Assembly: GCF_000151205.2 (NCBI RefSeq) | Contig: NC_016051.1 | Coordinates: 1,116,001 to 1,180,000, forward strand | Length of the DNA: 64,000 nucleotides | Source: Thermococcus sp. AM4 | GTDB lineage: Archaea; Methanobacteriota_B; Thermococci; Thermococcales; Thermococcaceae | Direction: 5' to 3' | Part shown: one piece after another, positions 19,325 through 28,568 of the stretch | Layout: each line of letters starts with the position of its first letter | How positions within the stretch are numbered: the first letter of the stretch is position 1 | Notes under the pieces: model-generated | Told to the model about the DNA's origin: nothing | Database searches by the model: none | The model's input: the letters and a program-made list of their open reading frames with translations, nothing else | Position numbers and translations under genes: made by a program

Positions 19325-19537
19325 ATGAGCGACGAAGGATATCCCGCCGAGGTCATCGAGATCGTTGCAAGAACCGGTGTCACCGGCGGCGTTACCCAGG
19401 TAAAGGTTAGAATACTCGAGGGACGCGACAAGGGTCGCGTCATCAGGAGGAACGTTAAAGGCCCGGTCCGCGTCGGCGACATAGTCATCCTCAGGGAGAC
19501 CGAAAGAGAGGCGAGAGAGATCAGGAGGAGGCGTTGA
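19325..19537 (+). CDS. rps28e: 30S ribosomal protein S28e
   Basis: The product is 70 residues, the usual length. [20 protein letters not shown] and [20 protein letters not shown] are diagnostic for S28e. It is a component of the small subunit near the mRNA exit. It is followed two bases later by rpl24e. Confidence 0.96.
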
Positions 19538-19539
19538 AG

Positions 19540-19746
19540 ATGGCCCGCTGGAACGTCTGCTCCTACTGCGGAAGGGAGTTCGAGCCGGGAACTGGCAAAA
19601 TGTTCGTCAGGAACGACGGCAGAGTGCTCTTCTTCTGCTCCAGCAAGTGCGAGAAGTACTACTTCATGGGGCGCAACCCGAGGAAGCTCAAGTGGACCAA
19701 GGCCTTCCAAGAGGCCAGGCTCCAGAGAGCCAAGAGGAGGAAGTGA
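19540..19746 (+). CDS. rpl24e: 50S ribosomal protein L24e
   Basis: The product is 68 residues from ATG 19540; an upstream in-frame TTG is rejected because GGAGGAGG fits the ATG. The zinc finger is visible as [13 protein letters not shown] and [20 protein letters not shown]. In related genomes this gene is normally followed closely by ndk. Here an islet of about 8.3 kb comes between. Confidence 0.96.
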
Positions 19747-19772
19747 TTTCTTTCTTTTCTTCGTAATTTTGC
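19747..19772 (+). terminator. T-rich tract after rpl24e
   Basis: Several runs of T (TTTC, TTTCTTTTC, AATTTT) follow the rpl24e stop, typical of archaeal oligo-T termination. It marks the left boundary of the accessory islet. Confidence 0.4.
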
Positions 19773-19812
19773 GTATTCTCGTGCCGTAACAAGCACGTAA
19801 TTTCCATTCTGC

Positions 19813-19829
19813 AAAACGTTTAAATATAT
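19813..19829 (+). promoter_or_regulatory. TATA box of the first islet gene
   Basis: AAAACGTTTAAATATAT fits BRE plus TATA and lies about 45 bases before ATG 19871. Nearby, 19842-19850 reads GATTACAAC, which matches one arm of the palindrome at 21253-21270. Confidence 0.55.
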
Positions 19830-19870
19830 GGATACCCTACACGATTACAACAACCCGCTGGGGGAGTTGA

Positions 19871-21058
19871 ATGCGAGGGAAGATAGTATTGTTTGTACTA
19901 GGAGTTCTGATCGGCGGCCTCTTAGTTTTCTTGGCGCATCCATTCCATCCTTCCCATACCTCTCCTGAGAACATTCCCTCAGCAGCCCCCATAGTTGAGG
20001 TGTATAGGGGAGCAAATTATACCGCCTATCTATTCTACACCAAAAGCGGTCTGCCCATCGATAAAGGTCAACTTGCCAAGAAAATCGAAGCATTACTCGA
20101 CATAACCGCTCCAAACGTCAAATGGCAAACTTACGCCATTCCCGACCTTCCCAAAGACGTCGTTCTCATTGGATACGGAATAAAGGTAACCAAGGACGGC
20201 CGGACCGCAAGTTACATCCTCGCAACGAGAGAGAATTCTCTTCCCCAAGAAAATCCCAGGGCAGAACTCCTCAAGTGGGCCCAGAAGAAACCGGTTTTTG
20301 CCCCCAAAATCCCAATCGGAACCTACGGACCACCCAAGGGCTGGGTGGCCAAGATAACGACCAGCACCGGCGAGGAAAGAATACTGAGCGGGCAGGTAAG
20401 CCCCTACTGGTACGATATCGGTCCCGCTGAGATGCAACTCAATTATCCCCCGTATGGCAATATAAAAATGAAGTTCCACCTCTACGCCCTCCTACACGAC
20501 GGTGATCCCCAGCACATTAGCCTTCTCCTCGCCCCCGGCAAAAACGGGGACGGATGGTACAGGATTGAGCCAGGATACTGGATAAGGCACGTACTGGGTA
20601 ACAGTAATTACGGCGATTATATAACGGATATGGCGAAGATAATCCACGACTGGAACCTCGATCCAGCCCTCAAACCAGAAATAGACACCGCATACATCCC
20701 CACGACCACCAAGGGTCATCGGGAAATCCAGATACCCTTAGGATACCCTCCCTCGCTGAATTTCACAATAACGATTCCTGACTCGAAGATGCTTCCAGCG
20801 GTTGCCAGTTCGACCCAGAAGGCAGGATGGCTCCTAGAGTTCAACTCCAACTCTGATGATGCGAAGTACTCCTTCAGTACCAACGTCTATTCAACGGCCA
20901 AGGTGAAGCAGTCTGTACTGCTCGACGGCCACTGGCATAGCATTGTCAAGGTGACGTTCCAAGTATCGTTCAAGAACTCCGGTAATTTCCTCGGCTGGAG
21001 GAAGGATCACAAAGCATTAATGGCTCTAACGTGGAACCTGAAGGTTGATAACCTCTAA
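19871..21058 (+). CDS. Secreted or anchored protein of unknown function (islet gene 1)
   Basis: The product is 395 residues. An N-terminal membrane helix or signal (KIVLFVLGVLIGGLLVFLA) is followed by a long extracellular part rich in Pro, Tyr and Trp. Recognisable stretches include VAKITTSTGEERIL and HSIVKVTFQVSFKNSGN, but I do not know the family. The start has GGGGGAGTTGA upstream. It has its own promoter and is separated from the rest of the islet by 311 AT-rich bases. Confidence 0.75.
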   Translation: MRGKIVLFVLGVLIGGLLVFLAHPFHPSHTSPENIPSAAPIVEVYRGANYTAYLFYTKSGLPIDKGQLAKKIEALLDITAPNVKWQTYAIPDLPKDVVLIGYGIKVTKDGRTASYILATRENSLPQENPRAELLKWAQKKPVFAPKIPIGTYGPPKGWVAKITTSTGEERILSGQVSPYWYDIGPAEMQLNYPPYGNIKMKFHLYALLHDGDPQHISLLLAPGKNGDGWYRIEPGYWIRHVLGNSNYGDYITDMAKIIHDWNLDPALKPEIDTAYIPTTTKGHREIQIPLGYPPSLNFTITIPDSKMLPAVASSTQKAGWLLEFNSNSDDAKYSFSTNVYSTAKVKQSVLLDGHWHSIVKVTFQVSFKNSGNFLGWRKDHKALMALTWNLKVDNL

Positions 21059-21252
21059 ATGCATATTTTTCAATTTTAGGAGTGTTCTGCCAAGTCAAAT
21101 GATTATCCAGCATCATCAGGAAGTACAAATTAAATTTCAGTCCCTTTTTGCAATTACCGAAATTCAGTCAAAAAATACACAAGAACTATTTAAGTTCTCT
21201 ACTAGATTTTTATTTGTAGTTTTTGTAGCAAAAATATCAGCGTGGATAGCTT

Positions 21253-21270
21253 GTTGTAATTGATTACAAC
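21253..21270. promoter_or_regulatory. Perfect 8-bp palindrome upstream of the islet operon promoter
   Basis: GTTGTAAT and ATTACAAC flank TG. It lies about 26 bases upstream of the BRE/TATA at 21296-21310. Part of one arm recurs near the promoter of islet gene 1. A regulator operator is a reasonable inference. Confidence 0.45.
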
Positions 21271-21295
21271 CACCATAAAATTACCTATCATAATA

Positions 21296-21310
21296 GAAAG
21301 GTTTATAAAG
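21296..21310 (+). promoter_or_regulatory. BRE/TATA box of the islet operon
   Basis: GAAAGGTTTATAAAG is one of the strongest promoter matches in the window. The expected transcript start is near 21333, which places the GTG at 21315 upstream of the mRNA and supports ATG 21370 as the start. Confidence 0.7.
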
Positions 21311-21330
21311 AATAGTGTTAAACCCACTAA

Positions 21331-21348
21331 GGGCACGGAATAGTGCCC
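21331..21348 (+). other. Small hairpin at the predicted 5' end of the islet mRNA
   Basis: GGGCAC and GTGCCC can pair around the loop GGAATA. It lies at the predicted transcript start and ends about ten bases before GGAGGTG, so it could stabilise the mRNA or influence initiation. Confidence 0.4.
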
Positions 21349-21369
21349 ATACACTTTGGAGGTGGAAAA

Positions 21370-22295
21370 ATGAGGCTAAGGAAAAGCCTCTTGGCTCTGG
21401 GAATGTTTTTTTTTTAGTAGTGGCGGCAGTATTTCCTTCGACTTTTGTAGCAGGAATGTCAACGGCTGCCAGCGACAGAAACGAATATACTGGGCATGCA
21501 ACATGGTATAGTGCAAGCAACACTATAACAAGATATGAAGATACCATACGGGGTGGATACGTCCAAGATGTCAAAGTCTCTATACCATGGGATGGCCATG
21601 TAGCTGCCAGTGTATCGATTCTTGCCCACCATCTGTATTTCATAGACGATGATGGAAAAATTTATGACTTCCCAATAGCAGTGGGAGCTACGGATTACAA
21701 TAGAGGAACCCAAAGTACGATATCCTATCCCGGAGGAACAACTACAAAAGAAAAGTATAGCGTGAGTTTCGTTAATGACGGGTATTCAAAACATGTAATT
21801 TACTCGGGAACGACCTCAGGAGAGAGCAGGGGCGGGGTAATTGTTAAGGTTACGGCAACCGATGAAGTTTCAGCCAAGATGAAAGCTGAAGCCAAAGTTA
21901 AGGCGGGGCTTGATGTACTCGGAAGCGGATGGGAAACGGCATTGGAACTCTCCTCAGAGGTCGTTAAGAAGGTCTCTGGTACGCAGGAATACTATGTTGA
22001 AGTCAGCTTTACATTGAAGCACTATTACCTTGAGGTGGACTATAAAGGGTATCTTGTCCATGAGGTTACAACGTATGGAAATGGTCCGGCCTGCCCAACA
22101 TTGGCGCCAAATCTGCCAGAGATCTCTAAAAACAGCGTGATTTCACCCCTTGGATGTGTTTATTCCAAGGTGAACACTAAACCATTTGATCTCAGCAGGA
22201 TCGTATACTTCTGGAGCTTTGCAGGTGGGGTTGATATTTCAAGTCTAGGAGCTAATCAGGGGTTCCCAATAGTGTACGAGGAGGTGAGTGAATGA
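21370..22295 (+). pseudogene. Secreted protein of unknown function with a frameshift at a T10 run in the signal peptide
   Basis: ATG 21370 has a perfect GGAGGTG site and begins MRLRKSLLALGM, the start of a signal peptide. It then meets ten T residues (21406-21415) and stops at TAG 21415. One extra T, or two fewer, continues into LVVAAVFPSTFVAG and a long open frame to 22295, about 308 residues in total. The mature part (DRNEYTGHATWYSASN onward) is beta-rich and of no family I know. The gene may be broken, phase-variable, read by slippage, or affected by a sequencing error. Its stop overlaps the next start (ATGA), so it heads the operon. Confidence 0.65.
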
Positions 22296-23953
22296 AGCAT
22301 CTTTCTTTTTTTATTGTTTTCATCATCATTAGTACTATGATATCCCCAAATTCTGCAATTGCATCTTCAATTACCACTATTCATTCTGTTCCAGTTGCAA
22401 TTTGGCCAATGAATGAAAACTTTTCAATAGTTCCCCTCAACGCTCCTTCTTGCTATCCGTTTTCGACTTTTGGCATCGCGACCGTGAACTTTACGAACTC
22501 AACTGATGTAATCTACGCCTATGGAGGAGGATGGATATATGCGGGATGCAAGAACGTGACCCATCCCCTCATCACAATAAAAGGTGCAACTTTTTATAGG
22601 TTTAAAGGGATTAATGGTTCTCCTAACGAGACGTATATTGAGATTAAAGGTTCTATGTTTATCCCCGAGCCATATCGGGTAGCCTTGGGATTTTTCTCAA
22701 CCAACGTAACGTTCAAGTATCTCCAATATAACGCTACCCATGTGCTCGTTGAAGTCAGGATATCAAACATTACGGTATGGCCCGATGGGGAGAGAATCCT
22801 AAACACAACGGACCCCACCGCGATTGGATGGCCAAAGAACCTAACCCTTAGGTATTTGGTTGAGAGTAAGACAGGAGAAGGATACATTCTCTCGAACTCC
22901 ACAAAGACGTATATCGGCCTGTTTCCGCTGTACCCATCTCCGTACCTTGATAAAAAGCGCTATTTCGACGCGATACTAACAAACACGGAAAAGTTAATTG
23001 AGGAAGTTTCAGAAAATCCATGGATTGTTACGAACGTTATCGAGAAGGCCAAATTGAGTTCAACCAAGAACGAGAGCCTCTATTCGAGACTTATAACTCA
23101 GCTTGCGTATAATCTAACTGCACGCGTGTTATACCCAACTGATTCATACATCGGGCTTCCCCTTCGTATTGGCACTGATTACATTAAAAACGGAACGATA
23201 GCTGTTCCTGAAGTTACAGCATGGACAGGACATTCTTACATTGTGGAAACCCTTGCCGTGTCTCACAGGGTTCTTCCCTACAAGCTTCGGCTTGAGGCTA
23301 TTAAGAGGTACATTTATCAGAATGACAGCACTCTTTTGAAAGAACTCATACTAAACTCCACCAACATAACAAGAACCATGAGCCCGTACTTGTTGTATTC
23401 GTTTGGAAGAAAAACATATGGAGTCGTCGATGTACACGTGCCTCCAGATGATTCCATGCTTTTAACATTGCCCCTACCCCCCTCGATGAAGAAAAAACTT
23501 GGAGCCTCTTATATCTTGATAAAGGCCGTAAAGGGTGGCTCGACACAGTACATTCACGTTGAGTACACTCCCTCAATTCTCTCCCCCGAGAGGATACGAG
23601 AAGACTGGAAAGTCATCGGCCAGTGCTCGGCATATCTCCGCTCCCGACTTGTGAACAGGTTTCTTGAAATCCTTAACAACGCATCAACCAACGGTTTCAA
23701 CGTCACGGTCTTCACAGGGATGTACACGTTCGTGAAGAACCAACTCAAAATGTGCGGTTTCAACGAGTCCACGTTAGCTAATGGAACAATCACTGCAACG
23801 TCAGGGACAGAGATGAAAGAAGGCAAAAAAGCCGAGAAAAAGCACAGATGGAGTATATGCGGGCCAGGCACTGCGATCTTGTTCTCCTTGCTTGGAATCA
23901 GGCTGATGAAGACAAAAGGAAAAAAACAAGAAAATGAGGAGGTGAAAAGATGA
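22292..23953 (+). CDS. CGP-CTERM surface protein, WP..C family, paralogue 1
   Basis: The product is 553 residues with an N-terminal signal peptide (HLSFFIVFIIISTMIS) and many N-glycosylation sequons. After the signal comes VAIWPMNENFSIVPLN, then a Cys pair (PSCYPF, AGCKNV). A later block, ENPWIVTNVIEKAKLSS, is shared with the two following proteins. The C-terminus reads SICGPG, then a hydrophobic segment and a basic end, which is the CGP-CTERM anchor signal of Thermococcales surface proteins. Function is unknown. It overlaps both neighbours by four bases. Confidence 0.75.
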   Translation: MKHLSFFIVFIIISTMISPNSAIASSITTIHSVPVAIWPMNENFSIVPLNAPSCYPFSTFGIATVNFTNSTDVIYAYGGGWIYAGCKNVTHPLITIKGATFYRFKGINGSPNETYIEIKGSMFIPEPYRVALGFFSTNVTFKYLQYNATHVLVEVRISNITVWPDGERILNTTDPTAIGWPKNLTLRYLVESKTGEGYILSNSTKTYIGLFPLYPSPYLDKKRYFDAILTNTEKLIEEVSENPWIVTNVIEKAKLSSTKNESLYSRLITQLAYNLTARVLYPTDSYIGLPLRIGTDYIKNGTIAVPEVTAWTGHSYIVETLAVSHRVLPYKLRLEAIKRYIYQNDSTLLKELILNSTNITRTMSPYLLYSFGRKTYGVVDVHVPPDDSMLLTLPLPPSMKKKLGASYILIKAVKGGSTQYIHVEYTPSILSPERIREDWKVIGQCSAYLRSRLVNRFLEILNNASTNGFNVTVFTGMYTFVKNQLKMCGFNESTLANGTITATSGTEMKEGKKAEKKHRWSICGPGTAILFSLLGIRLMKTKGKKQENEEVKR

Positions 23954-24453
23954 GGTTTTACAAGCTATTTCTTTCTTTTTCTATTTTGTCAGTTTTCATA
24001 TTGGGATCTTTTTATATGCCCTCAGTAATTGCTGAAAACTTTACCCCAAATACCGTTCCCTTAATTTCAGATGATCGGGATATAAACTTCATCGTTCTCT
24101 GGCCTCTCGACGAGAACTTCAAAATAGTCCAGTTTAACATCAGCTCGTGCACTCCCTACCCCTATCTGAAAAATCGCCTGATAGGTTATTATATAAACGC
24201 CACAGAAGCTCTGGAGATAAGGGCCAACGTTTATATCGGGTGCTCCAACGTCTCGGGGATTAAGGTGGAAGTTCTCTCACCTAAGATCACGCGGAAGAAA
24301 GAGAACTTCATGTACGTTACCGTTCCGGTCAGCTACCTCCAGACCATCAAGGAAAACGCCTTTAACTTCGTCCAGAGCGTGAAGTCAAATCCATGGACAA
24401 TAAAGGAGATTGTCGAGAAGACCAAGCTCGCTAACAAGAGTGACTATATATGA
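23950..24453 (+). CDS. Truncated paralogue 2 of the WP..C surface family
   Basis: The product is 167 residues. It has the same plan as its neighbours at the N-terminus: signal peptide, FIVLWPLDENFKIVQFN, and the Cys pair in SSCTPY and IGCSNV. It then jumps directly to SVKSNPWTIKEIVEKTKLA and stops. Compared with the paralogues on either side it lacks a middle block of roughly 100 residues, the whole C-terminal half and the CGP-CTERM anchor. It may be a decaying copy or a short soluble variant. An 81-base gap without a clear gene follows. Confidence 0.65.
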   Translation: MRFYKLFLSFSILSVFILGSFYMPSVIAENFTPNTVPLISDDRDINFIVLWPLDENFKIVQFNISSCTPYPYLKNRLIGYYINATEALEIRANVYIGCSNVSGIKVEVLSPKITRKKENFMYVTVPVSYLQTIKENAFNFVQSVKSNPWTIKEIVEKTKLANKSDYI

Positions 24454-24534
24454 TAGCTTTTTATTCCCTGGAAGATGTAGAGATAAGTACTCAAGGCACA
24501 ACTGGAGAGATGGTAAGCTAAGGGGGAACTGGAC

Positions 24535-26025
24535 ATGAGAATAGAAAGGGGTTTTGCCACTGTTTTTCTTGTTTTTCTTCTTTTTGTTCAGGCATTCTTA
24601 ACTGTCCCCACCTTTGTCTCGGCTCAAGACACCGGCAACGAGAACACAACGTTCCCGGTCGTTATCTGGCCGTTGAACGGAAGCTTCAAAGTGATACCAT
24701 ACCACGCAAACGATTGCGTTCTATATCAGGAAAACAGAACATTAGGATACATAGTTAACTCAACTTCGGCGGTCTTTGTTAAGGCGAACATCTACGTTAA
24801 CTGCAAAAACGTTACCGACGTTAGGGTTGTCGTAGCGGGAAAACACAGCAAAACGAAAAACAACTACACAACGACAACGGTGATGCTCAACATCTACATG
24901 AACACGCCGTTTCCGGCCGTTGAGGAACTCCGCTCCAAAAACCTGACGATAGAGTATGATTATTACAACGAGAGATATGCACTTGTAAAGGTAACCTTTT
25001 CCAACCTGACCGTTTCCCCGGACATTGGATGGGTATTCAGCTCTTTTGACCCGGCCAAATATGGCTGGCCGAGGGATATAAAGCTCTCGTTTCTCGTGAA
25101 CAGGAACAACGGCGACTCATACCTGCTCGACAACGGTTCGAAGAGGTACGTTGGAAACCTCCCACTTCTGATGCCCCAATTTGACATCGTGAATTACCTC
25201 AATAGCGCGGTTAAGAATGCACAGGCTTTTGTCCGGCAGGTGAAGAAGAACCCCTGGGTGATTGGGAACATCATAAACAAGGCGAAGATGAGCTCCGGCT
25301 TCAACGCTTCGAAAATAATATCCAACGCAACGTTGAAGTTTAGAGACAGGATATTCAGCGTTAAGGGCACTTACCTCGGACTTCCAATAAAAGTGGTTGC
25401 AGAGGGAAACGGAACCTCTGTCTATGCCCCCGCGGTTAACTTCTCAAGGATCCTGCCTAAACCATGGGTGAACATAAGCGGAATACATAGCAACGAGACA
25501 GTGGAGGTCATAGTAAAATACCTTAAAACTGGGAACACCAGTGCTCTTGAGGATGCAATTAGGAACATTCTGTACATGAGGGAGATCCATCTTCCGGGTC
25601 TATTCGCAAACCATTTAATCGCCGCCTACATTCCCCCGAGACGGGGAGATACAATTGTTCTGCCACTGAGCAGGGAGTACGAAAAGCAACTAAACGCATC
25701 CTACATTCTATCCTACATCACTTTAAGTTCCGGTGGATATCTTCACGTTAAGTACGACCCCAGGGTCCTCAACCCTCGGAAGGCGGAGGAGAACTGGAGG
25801 AAGTACGGCTCATGCGTTCCCCTTATAGAGAGCGATCTCTTTCAGAGCCTCTCGAACTTTATGAACGACGCACTTGCAACGGGGAAGATAAATCAGACCA
25901 AGCTCGAGGATGTTTACCTGACAGTTAAGAAAGATGTGACAAGGTGTCTCGGCCATCCGGCCGAGGAAACGCCATCCAAGGAGAGACGGCAAGTTCCAGC
26001 TTCACGTCAACGATTCCCCCACTGA
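24535..26025 (+). CDS. WP..C surface protein, paralogue 3, frameshifted before its CGP-CTERM anchor
   Basis: As read, the product is 496 residues with signal peptide, VVIWPLNGSFKVIPYH, the Cys pair (NDCVLY, VNCKNV), KKNPWVIGNIINKAKMSS, then a C-terminal Cys pair (GSCVPL, TRCLGH) as in paralogue 1. The frame ends at 26025 in an unrelated tail (RRQVPASRQRFPH). A different frame carries the expected ending. A shift of one base around 25970-25990 would join the two and give about 527 residues. Function is unknown. Confidence 0.7.
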   Translation: MRIERGFATVFLVFLLFVQAFLTVPTFVSAQDTGNENTTFPVVIWPLNGSFKVIPYHANDCVLYQENRTLGYIVNSTSAVFVKANIYVNCKNVTDVRVVVAGKHSKTKNNYTTTTVMLNIYMNTPFPAVEELRSKNLTIEYDYYNERYALVKVTFSNLTVSPDIGWVFSSFDPAKYGWPRDIKLSFLVNRNNGDSYLLDNGSKRYVGNLPLLMPQFDIVNYLNSAVKNAQAFVRQVKKNPWVIGNIINKAKMSSGFNASKIISNATLKFRDRIFSVKGTYLGLPIKVVAEGNGTSVYAPAVNFSRILPKPWVNISGIHSNETVEVIVKYLKTGNTSALEDAIRNILYMREIHLPGLFANHLIAAYIPPRRGDTIVLPLSREYEKQLNASYILSYITLSSGGYLHVKYDPRVLNPRKAEENWRKYGSCVPLIESDLFQSLSNFMNDALATGKINQTKLEDVYLTVKKDVTRCLGHPAEETPSKERRQVPASRQRFPH

Positions 26026-26119
26026 AACGTCTACAAAAAACAAAAGGAAAGACATCTGCGGTCCGGCCCTCATCATAGGCCTCTCGATAATCCCGCTGCT
26101 GAGGAGGAAGAAAAAATGA
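25982..26119 (+). other. Out-of-frame CGP-CTERM tail of paralogue 3
   Basis: Read from 25982, this encodes RDGKFQLHVNDSPTETSTK, a basic linker, then DICGPALIIGLSIIPLLRRK, and stops at TGA 26117-26119. That is a textbook CGP-CTERM anchor. The stop overlaps the ATG of the next gene (ATGA at 26116), exactly as at the other junctions of this operon. This strongly suggests it was the original end of paralogue 3. Confidence 0.7.
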
Positions 26120-26871
26120 AGGCCCTAATAAAGAACGCGTTTTCAGACTACCTCCACGTCGAGGTGCTGGCGGTGATTTTGGCTGCCATAATGGTCGCGG
26201 CTGTTACATCATACATAGCGGCTGACTCCGTCTACAAGGCCTCAATAATCGGGGGCTCGGTGACCCCTATCCTCGGGGCCCCTGGCCACCTCTCGGGTCA
26301 GGTGCAGGAGAAGCCGCCGGAATACTACGCCTCCAAGTACCTCGCGATGAAGGAGAAGATTGCAAACCTTTTTGGAGCCCTCGTGTGGTCGAACTCCAGC
26401 CTGCTCTCTTCCGTTTACGTTGTGGCCGTGATGATAGCCCTCTTTCCCATGATGTACAAGACGAGGTCTTCATTCGTCCCCCTGCTCTTCAGGGAGAGGG
26501 CTTCGCCAGCTAAAGCAGCTTTAATAGGCTTTACCGCTTCTCTCGTTCTCTTTCTGCTTCTGGCGTTCTCAGCGCTCTTTCCCATAGAAATTGTCTCAAT
26601 TAAGTGGCTCTCCGGAATAAGCCGTCACTCCCTTATCCTGCTGGCCTCAATCCTCATTTCCCTCCTCCTGACGGCAACGCTCGCCGTTTACTCGACCTAC
26701 ATCCTGTGGGGCAGGCTCGACCTCTCAATAGTCTTCACCCTGCTCCTGACGTTCCTCCTCTCCGGGAAGCTCGGCTTTGAATGGAGGACCGTGTGGACAT
26801 ACCTTGGGGTTTCGGCCGGACTGTTTGTCTTCATGCTCTACTCCCTTCACAGGAGGTTGATGAACGTATGA
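26116..26871 (+). CDS. ABC transporter membrane subunit (islet)
   Basis: The product is 251 residues with about six hydrophobic helices (for example VLAVILAAIMVAAVTSYIAA, SSVYVVAVMIALFPMM and LILLASILISLLLTATLAVY). A sizeable external loop lies between the first two. The layout resembles ABC-2 type permeases, and an ATPase gene follows two genes later. It overlaps the restored end of paralogue 3 and the next gene in ATGA fashion. Transport direction and substrate cannot be read from the sequence. Confidence 0.7.
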   Translation: MKALIKNAFSDYLHVEVLAVILAAIMVAAVTSYIAADSVYKASIIGGSVTPILGAPGHLSGQVQEKPPEYYASKYLAMKEKIANLFGALVWSNSSLLSSVYVVAVMIALFPMMYKTRSSFVPLLFRERASPAKAALIGFTASLVLFLLLAFSALFPIEIVSIKWLSGISRHSLILLASILISLLLTATLAVYSTYILWGRLDLSIVFTLLLTFLLSGKLGFEWRTVWTYLGVSAGLFVFMLYSLHRRLMNV

Positions 26872-27320
26872 GGTGGTGGAAAACCATCGCGATCATAGCG
26901 GCACTCTCTCTACTGCTCTCGGCCTCCGTTACCGTCCTTGGAATCTCCTACTGGAGCCCCCTTGAATCTTCGATGCACGCAGAGATAAGGCTCGACCAGG
27001 CAGATCAGCTCCTGAAGTTCGGCAAAGCCGTTGATAAAAACGTCACATACAGTTTCGACGTTTTCTGGCCTATGAAAGCCGGAAAAACTGAATTGAGCTT
27101 GAACTTAGCCAACGTTGACTGCCCCAAGAACGCAGACTACACGATTAAAGTCGTCACAATGGATGGAAAGGTCTTCCAGGGATCGGGACCGGTGAGATTC
27201 GAGTTCGAGAGGAGGGACCCCTTCCTGTACATCCATGTCAGTGTGGACATCCCAAATTCCTGCCGGGTTCTTCCGAGCAGAAACGGTCCGGAGGTGGTTG
27301 TGAATGTCAGTGTCGGATGA
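26868..27320 (+). CDS. Small anchored extracellular protein of the ABC cassette
   Basis: The product is 150 residues from ATG 26868 with GGAGGTTGAT upstream. An N-terminal membrane helix (TIAIIAALSLLLSASVTVLG) is followed by a small beta-rich domain. It contains VFWPMKAGKTELSLN and a Cys (VDCPKN) placed almost as in the WP..C surface proteins, so it may be a distant relative. It lies between the permease and ATPase genes, overlapping the ATPase by 17 bases. Possibly an extracellular accessory subunit. Confidence 0.65.
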   Translation: MRWWKTIAIIAALSLLLSASVTVLGISYWSPLESSMHAEIRLDQADQLLKFGKAVDKNVTYSFDVFWPMKAGKTELSLNLANVDCPKNADYTIKVVTMDGKVFQGSGPVRFEFERRDPFLYIHVSVDIPNSCRVLPSRNGPEVVVNVSVG

Positions 27321-27996
27321 GCCCGTAGTCAGCGTTAGAGACCTTACGGTCAGGTTCCGCTACAACGTGGCCCTCGATAACCTGAGCCTCGAAATTAAGA
27401 GGGGCCGAATTCTCCTTCTCGGCTCAAACGGCTCGGGAAAGACCACCCTGATGAGGGTCCTATCGGGCCTTCTGAGACCCACAACTGGAAAAGTCAAAGT
27501 CCTCGGGCTGGATCCCTTCAAGGAGAGCGGAAGGCTTTACTCAAGGATGCTCTACGTGAGGGACGTTGAGGATCTCCCCTATATGATGAGGGTTTCTACC
27601 GTGGTGGAACTCCTCTCCGATGTCTACGGAAGTGGGAAGGTTAGAAAGGCCGTTAAGACCCTCGGACTGGAAAAACACCTCTTCAAGCGGATCGGCGAGC
27701 TCTCCAAAGGTTTGCGGAGGAGGGTTTCAATGATTGAACCCCTCGCAAGCGGCAGGGAGCTCATCCTGATGGACGAGCCCTTCAGCGGCCTCGACGCTGA
27801 CAGCAGGGTAATTATTGCAAAGGCCCTCTCCAACCTGCCCGAGGAAATGACCTTAGTGATAGCGAGCCACATTCCCCTTAACATGGGGATAGATCAAATG
27901 GTCGTTCTGGAGGGCGGGAAGCTGAGCTACAACGGGCCATACAATCGCGAAGTCGCACGGAAGTACCTTGCATGGATGGAAGAGCTAACGGGCTGA
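27304..27996 (+). CDS. ABC transporter ATP-binding protein (islet)
   Basis: The product is 230 residues. Walker A is GSNGSGKT at 40-47, the signature is LSKGLRRR at 133-140 (a variant of LSGGQ), Walker B is LILMDEP at 153-159, with D-loop SGLDADS and switch ASHIP. It powers the membrane subunit encoded two genes upstream. GGAGGTGGTTGTGA precedes the ATG. It is the last gene of the islet; ndk starts 47 bases later. Confidence 0.93.
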
Positions 27997-28043
27997 TGCA
28001 AAAACATATTAATCCCCTTGCCCCTCATATTTTGGTGTTGCCG

Positions 28044-28568
28044 ATGGCCGACAAACAGATAGAAAGAACCCTCGTTATTCTGAAGCCCGATGCAGTTGTC
28101 CGCGGGTTGATGGGCGAAATCATAAGCCGCTTTGAGAAGAGGGGCCTCAAGATAGTGGGAATGAAGATGATATGGATCGACCGCGAGCTCGCTGAAAAGC
28201 ACTACGAGGAGCACAGGGGCAAGCCCTTCTTCGAGGCTCTGATAGACTACATCACCAAGGCTCCAAGCGTCGTGATGGTCGTTGAGGGGCGCTATGCAAT
28301 AAGCGTCGTCAGGAAGATGGCCGGCGCGACCGACCCGAAGGACGCAGAGCCGGGGAGCATAAGGGGTGACTACGGCCTCGACGTCGGGGATGCGATATAC
28401 AACGTTATCCACGCATCAGACAGCCCCGAGAGCGCGGAGAGGGAGATAAGCCTATACTTCAAGCCAGAGGAGCTCTACCGCTACTGCAAAGCCGCCGACT
28501 GGTTCTACCACACCCACGCGAGGGCAAGGAAGGAGTACCTCGACAGCATGGACTGTCTCGAGAGGTAA
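28044..28568 (+). CDS. ndk: Nucleoside diphosphate kinase
   Basis: The product is 174 residues from ATG 28044; in-frame starts upstream lack a ribosome site. The family motifs are intact: [14 protein letters not shown], the catalytic His123 in NVIHASDS and [17 protein letters not shown]. It equalises nucleoside triphosphate pools using ATP. In related genomes it follows rpl24e closely; here it restarts the ancestral gene order after the islet. Confidence 0.96.

Follow-up and report, generated by a model that had tools for sequence, protein, structure and literature searches.

Simple-sequence phase variation is known mostly from bacteria that live with hosts. In the contingency loci of Neisseria, Haemophilus and Campylobacter, a homopolymer lies in the 5' part of a surface or secreted gene, a change of one base in the run breaks the frame, and relatives carry on and off alleles. 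Homopolymer phase variation is also on record for the Mycobacterium tuberculosis complex, as cited in PMC11551767; in Mycobacterium, NucS leaves indels of 1-2 nt unrepaired, and this has been linked to homopolymer phase variation (PMC11551767). In a survey that covered 99 prokaryotes, 18 of them archaea, poly-A/T tracts were overrepresented and biased toward the 5' ends of genes, and an inactivation mechanism was proposed for such 5' homopolymeric tracts (PMC2831843). Among archaea, a homopolymer shift site gives rise to a programmed -1 frameshift in Sulfolobus fucA1, between two long ORFs and with a putative stem-loop (PMC8211752), and the VARTIG modules of Thermococcales vary by recombination of Ig-domain genes (PMC8416519).

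We analyzed a 64,000-nt stretch of the genome of Thermococcus sp. AM4 (the window), in which the leader of a gene that we call gene A is broken at a run of ten T. This gene has several features of a phase-variable gene: the tract lies in the 5' coding region, its length sets the frame, alleles of on and off length are found (between species), and the off ORFs are constrained. We judge it somewhat more probable than the alternatives taken together that gene A is a simple-sequence contingency gene, brought to its present OFF state by replication slippage, which explains all of the tract lengths that we observed. Judged from genome sequences, the runs of on and off length in related species suggest a random switch of the bacterial style in heat-loving archaea.

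The coordinates of the locus are collected in Table 1. The T10 tract, flanked by G and A, occupies codons 13-16 of the leader. The original prediction had placed it behind a start codon, ATG 21370, with a good ribosome site and had translation end directly after the run; both points were confirmed; the stop codon TAG at 21415-21417 begins with the tenth T. It also correctly predicted that T11 or T8 would open the frame: either length joins the leader to the frame restarting at 21414 and ending with TGA at 22293-22295 (293 residues from LVVAAV), which then reads on as LVVAAVFPSTFVAGMS... through what appears from its sequence to be a signal peptide. The product would have about 308 residues for T11 counted from ATG 21370. 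No other A/T run in the 2,086,428-bp contig reaches 10, eight A/T runs of at least 8 occur genome-wide, and the next longest in the window is 7. There is an in-frame GTG at 21315 but, since it lies only 6 nt 3' of the TATA-like box, it is probably upstream of the transcription start. Gene A belongs by appearance to a small secreted-protein family, with secretion predicted from the signal peptide; it matched no Pfam family, and a PDB sequence search returned no relative. An AlphaFold model computed without an alignment was too poor for use (mean pLDDT 36). The sole match outside the phylum, Bacillota L002, was a low-complexity A/K/E repeat and was rejected.

Table 1. Features of the gene A locus, in window coordinates.
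Feature	Coordinates	Strand	Basis or remark
Perfect palindrome TTGTAATTGATTACAA, candidate operator of gene A	21254..21269	.	
TATA-like box TTTATAAA of gene A (role inferred)	21302..21309	+	Sequence
Hairpin GGGCAC-GGAATA-GTGCCC, near inferred mRNA 5' end	21331..21348	+	
Shine-Dalgarno GGAGGTG of gene A	21358..21364	+	
Leader ORF in its present state, MRLRKSLLALGMFFF then stop	21370..21417	+	Sequence
T10 tract, candidate switch site, in hydrophobic core of predicted signal peptide	21406..21415	+	Relatives vary in length
Gene A body, 293 codons and stop, out of frame with its own start	21414..22295	+	
Gene B, 553 aa, predicted signal peptide and C-terminal hydrophobic anchor	22292..23953	+	
Second B-type gene, remnant, internal deletion and truncation	23950..24453	+	
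Further B-type gene, 496 aa	24535..26025	+	
Multi-pass membrane protein, probable ABC permease	26116..26871	+	Role inferred from neighboring gene
Small secreted or anchored protein, kept across the locus	26868..27320	+	
ABC transporter ATPase	27304..27996	+	ABC_tran, E 7.7e-21

Upstream of gene A, the palindrome has one match in the window against 0.07 expected, and a similar palindrome precedes the gene A copy of genome G063. The hairpin folds with a z of -3.97 and occurs as a single copy in the genome; the form GGGCAC-N4-6-GTGCCC is also found, with 4-nt loops, in other A-family leaders (L006, L007, L009). An Rfam search of 19500-28500 gave no match. A further repeat stands upstream of the cassettes of genes A and B in G067 and G041, with the sequence CTCCTTC-A(n)-CAATGGAGGA or one close to it. 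Its A(n) is A7, A8 or A9 (L036 5462, 7350 and 11974; L037 7893 and 9673), possibly a case of promoter-tract variation.

The locus is bounded by rpl24e (19534) and ndk/IF2 (27972, 29455), and the same site holds genes of the same kinds in G055, G050, G030, G067 and G041. Its unit is a cassette of gene A (~290 residues) and gene B (~540 residues), present in one to several copies and followed by the membrane protein, the small secreted protein and the ABC ATPase. In the window, the start of gene B overlaps the gene A stop (ATGA), gene B has its own Shine-Dalgarno sequence (22280-22286), and a T7 at 22306-22312 leaves the frame of its leader intact. The remnant behind it is ~79% identical to two separate parts of one B gene of G067, so that some decay has taken place beside gene A. 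G055 carries three successive cassettes over two contigs (the join of the contigs is inferred), each with a near-identical B C-terminus, promoter and leader on its 5' side. These repeats lie at about 2600-2770 and 5200-5400 of L031 and at 1-210 of L032, with the T run at the repeat edge, as if the cassettes recombined or converted there. Elsewhere in G055, truD (L031 8457-8503) is split by an in-frame TGA away from any homopolymer; we rejected it as a case of homopolymer frameshift, the break being a stop outside a homopolymer.

The main rival to phase variation is ordinary decay at a fragile site: accessory secreted genes would be losing their function, the homopolymer, as a mutational hot spot, would break first, and nothing would be reversible or selected. 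We regard this as unlikely, although several observations fit it. Gene A is patchy, A-family genes being present in 9 of 94 Thermococcaceae genomes; a B remnant lies within the same operon; the A-family copy of G011 contains an in-frame TGA; and that of G063 has lost its leader. If the broken leaders marked genes in decay, however, the off alleles should be less constrained than the on alleles, and here the orthologues speak against it. Four genes share the leader GGAATG-T(n)-AGTAG, with T10 in the window, T7 in the first cassette of G055, T7 in G050 and T8 in the third cassette of G055. The T7 and T10 leaders break the frame alike (off), and the T8 leader is open (on), reading MKKVLALLGMFFLVGAVMPAVGA... 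The off gene of G050 and the on gene of the third G055 cassette are positional orthologues, 94% identical, with dN 0.032 and dS 0.20 between them. Their distances to the outgroup copy in G030 are equal (dN 0.213 for G050 and 0.218 for G055), and therefore the off lineage shows neither relaxation nor decay. Window gene A and the first G055 cassette, both off and 52% identical, have no second lesion in 280 aligned codons. All on/off comparisons here are between species, with one genome per species. Uniform T8 or T11, or a non-homopolymer sequence at this position, had been named in the original prediction as contrary evidence; neither is found in the close cassette members, whereas the leaders of more distant A-family members are in frame without a T run. 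The T-run switch is not universal within the A family.

The same pattern was found in other secreted-protein families. The 94 Thermococcaceae genomes were scanned twice for starts that have a Shine-Dalgarno-like motif and a run of at least T8 within 15-45 nt, the first scan taking GAGG-ATG-T8 and the second using GGTG, and we assigned ON and OFF from the reading frames. The union of both scans comprised 15 in-frame and 10 out-of-frame genes, the latter including two that reach contig ends (L064, L184) and one with a GTG start (L197); matches that were not leaders of the downstream gene (L039, L047, L053 and others) were left out. T8 leaders were on in 15 cases and off in 2, and T9-T10 leaders were on in none and off in 8 (Fisher p 4e-5 for the union of the two scans). 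On and off alleles are both present in six T-run families and one G/A-run family. In one gene pair, the first gene is off with T7 in G057 and with T9 in G052 (at a contig end) and on with T8 in G014 and G066; the second is off with T8 in G057 and on with T7 in G014 and G066. The L081 family is off with T9 in G054 and the closed genome G027, on with T8 in G040, and off through other indels in G026. A 390-aa family is on with T8 in G063, G081 and G083 and off with T9 in G003 (contig end) and the closed genome G070 and with T10 in G068. A 400-450-aa family is off with T9 in the closed genome G025 and on with T8 in G054. The metalloprotease-like family, whose runs are of G or A, is off at G8 in G055 and G041, off in G019, and on at G8 in a paralogue of the window's genome. 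Two observations from this comparison also weigh against simple loss of function: across the families the off alleles keep otherwise intact ORFs of 134 to ~850 codons, and two orthologues that are both off at G8 and share 48% identity have kept an open frame for more than 800 codons.

Three further leaders are recorded here on their own account. ORF P0002 (L079 2098-4818; G000 1331097-1333817) has 907 codons and is secreted by appearance and metalloprotease-like; its sole Shine-Dalgarno-supported start, a GTG, is out of frame across A9, and the G063 orthologue has the same offset with A7. This shared offset leaves the true start unsure, and the A9 leader (G000 1331112) was dropped from the tally of off cases. 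A 197-codon frame of G055 has eleven identical bases in a row (T11/A11; L169 1629) some 19 codons from its first start, and these are apparently in frame. At L178 8857 in G026, an A8 near the start of a 176-codon frame for a non-secreted protein is seemingly out of frame.

It is improbable, in our estimate, that the T10 is a sequencing or assembly error and that the true tract of this genome is T8 or T11. No A/T run in the genome is longer than T10, and such sites are prone to mistakes in long-read assemblies. If errors at homopolymers were common, runs within gene bodies should be broken as well. We counted runs of at least 7 in gene bodies of the sampled sequence, and all 53 were in frame: 17 of 17 in the window's own genome (the window and twenty 20-kb stretches) and 36 of 36 in ~525 kb of other genomes, a sample partly picked around known cases. 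This result is evidence against errors being general at homopolymers. Runs of at least 8 in gene bodies were in frame in 7 of 7 cases, four of them in the window's genome; compared with the leaders this gives, by our own reckoning, p about 0.07, which is not below 0.05 with so small a control. The plain count was used in place of an automated scan for homopolymer frameshifts by codon statistics, which yielded chiefly false positives, the G run being the Shine-Dalgarno sequence of the next gene, and which missed gene A owing to its low codon score. An error is further opposed by the orthologous leader being off at T7, a length seldom miscalled, in two other assemblies, and by T9 at comparable leaders in the closed genomes G025, G027 and G070. 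It would moreover cover the T10 call alone and not the pattern over families.

Still less probable is constitutive expression by slippage, in which RNA polymerase would slip on T10, or the ribosome would shift by -1 at U UUU UUU before UAG, to yield a fixed share of full-length protein. The original prediction had offered phase-variable or slippage-dependent expression as a pair, and the comparative evidence parts them. Phase variation is upheld by the T7/T8/T10 orthologous leaders, by the constrained intact frames and by the on/off pattern in other secreted families. Programmed slippage gained no such support. The run in the window is longer than the nine or so A/T that bacterial RNA polymerase needs for slippage (PMC5009743), so that expression could leak from T10; the G055 and G050 leaders have only T7, shorter than slippage length, and could not leak in this way. 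For the ribosome, the heptamer U_UUU_UUU stands in the zero frame with UAG behind it in the window, and a -1 shift there matches X_XXY_YYZ and would give MFFFLVV; in the T7 relatives the heptamer begins with G. The window (T10) and the first G055 cassette (T7) have an equal frame offset, and the Sulfolobus fucA1 orthologues with one A fewer are full-length genes (PMC8211752). Against this, neither direction nor site of a -1 shift is conserved: an in-frame T8 allele exists within the A family, and other groups are off both ways, with T7 and T9 around T8 in one orthologue group. Folding of the RNA downstream of the tract, where a stimulatory structure would be expected at 5-9 nt, gave none clearly better than shuffles (z -1.06, -0.07 and -0.34). 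The offsets in both directions, the in-frame alleles and the absence of structure behind the run together disfavor a single programmed shift by the ribosome. It is very improbable that the oligo-T is an attenuator, with intrinsic archaeal termination near the start of the operon and the frame secondary: short poly-U does suffice, with no hairpin, to stop euryarchaeal RNA polymerases (PMC7289017), but this leaves both the match of length to frame (T8 on, T9-T10 off) and the G-run and A-run cases unaccounted for.

If gene A is phase-variable, the switch may work as follows. The T run encodes Phe in the predicted hydrophobic core of the signal peptide, and replication slippage would add or drop one T, upon which the frame would be lost and translation would end a few codons past the run. 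T8 (or T11) would then be ON, and the sequenced clone, with T10, would be OFF. Exported A would then not be made, and gene B would perhaps be down-regulated too, through lost translational coupling or polarity; the U10 itself could act as an archaeal terminator. Further slippage would presumably restore ON. T7 and T8 are short by the standard of classical hypermutable tracts. The polymerases PolB and PolD of P. abyssi slip in vitro on hairpin and direct-repeat templates (PMC4134008). A permissive condition could lie in mismatch repair, which in Thermococcales is of the EndoMS/NucS type; by analogy with the mycobacterial enzyme, we infer that archaeal NucS may be blind to small indels. More tentatively, and with slightly less than even confidence, we propose that mononucleotide tracts in signal peptides form a family-wide bet-hedging switch in Thermococcaceae, acting at random on secreted and surface proteins and enabled by a NucS that ignores indels, with T8 the usual ON and T9-T10 (or T7) OFF.

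In the literature searched, which covers subscription papers only in small part, nothing earlier describes phase variation by homopolymers in Thermococcales. Should this reading be correct, orthologous on and off alleles in several secreted families of free-living hyperthermophiles would extend phase variation to archaea, and would explain why such genes can resemble pseudogenes or escape annotation. It would also predict that archaea with NucS in place of MutSL may put up with homopolymer indels or make use of them.

Set beside the VARTIG modules of Thermococcales (PMC8416519), the cassettes described here are likewise variable and lineage-specific modules of the same order, with products predicted to be secreted or at the surface. 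A VARTIG operon carries at its 5' end an Ig-domain protein of arCOG07710; for gene A, Pfam and PDB sequence searches returned no relative. The word 'frameshift' is absent from the VARTIG paper. The Sulfolobus fucA1 site (PMC8211752) shares with our leaders an archaeal homopolymer at which orthologues differ by one base; unlike fucA1, the leaders are offset both ways and no structure was seen. The available part of the survey of 5' tracts (PMC2831843) leaves Thermococcus and Pyrococcus unnamed and gives no orthologous on/off leader alleles, and to it we add specific loci and alleles. With the Mycobacterium tuberculosis complex, as cited in PMC11551767, Thermococcaceae have in common NucS-type repair and short homopolymer indels between relatives, but they belong to another domain, and it is for the mycobacterial NucS that indel blindness is known. 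The loci of Neisseria, Haemophilus and Campylobacter are matched in the 5' position of the run, the predicted kind of gene, the effect of a one-base change and the on and off alleles of relatives. Here the hosts of such runs are hyperthermophilic archaea, known in this respect from their sequences, and the runs are mostly poly-T of 7-10 in the core of a signal peptide. What is new is a set of specific Thermococcaceae loci with on and off alleles, whose mode of working would, by analogy, be that of the bacterial contingency loci.
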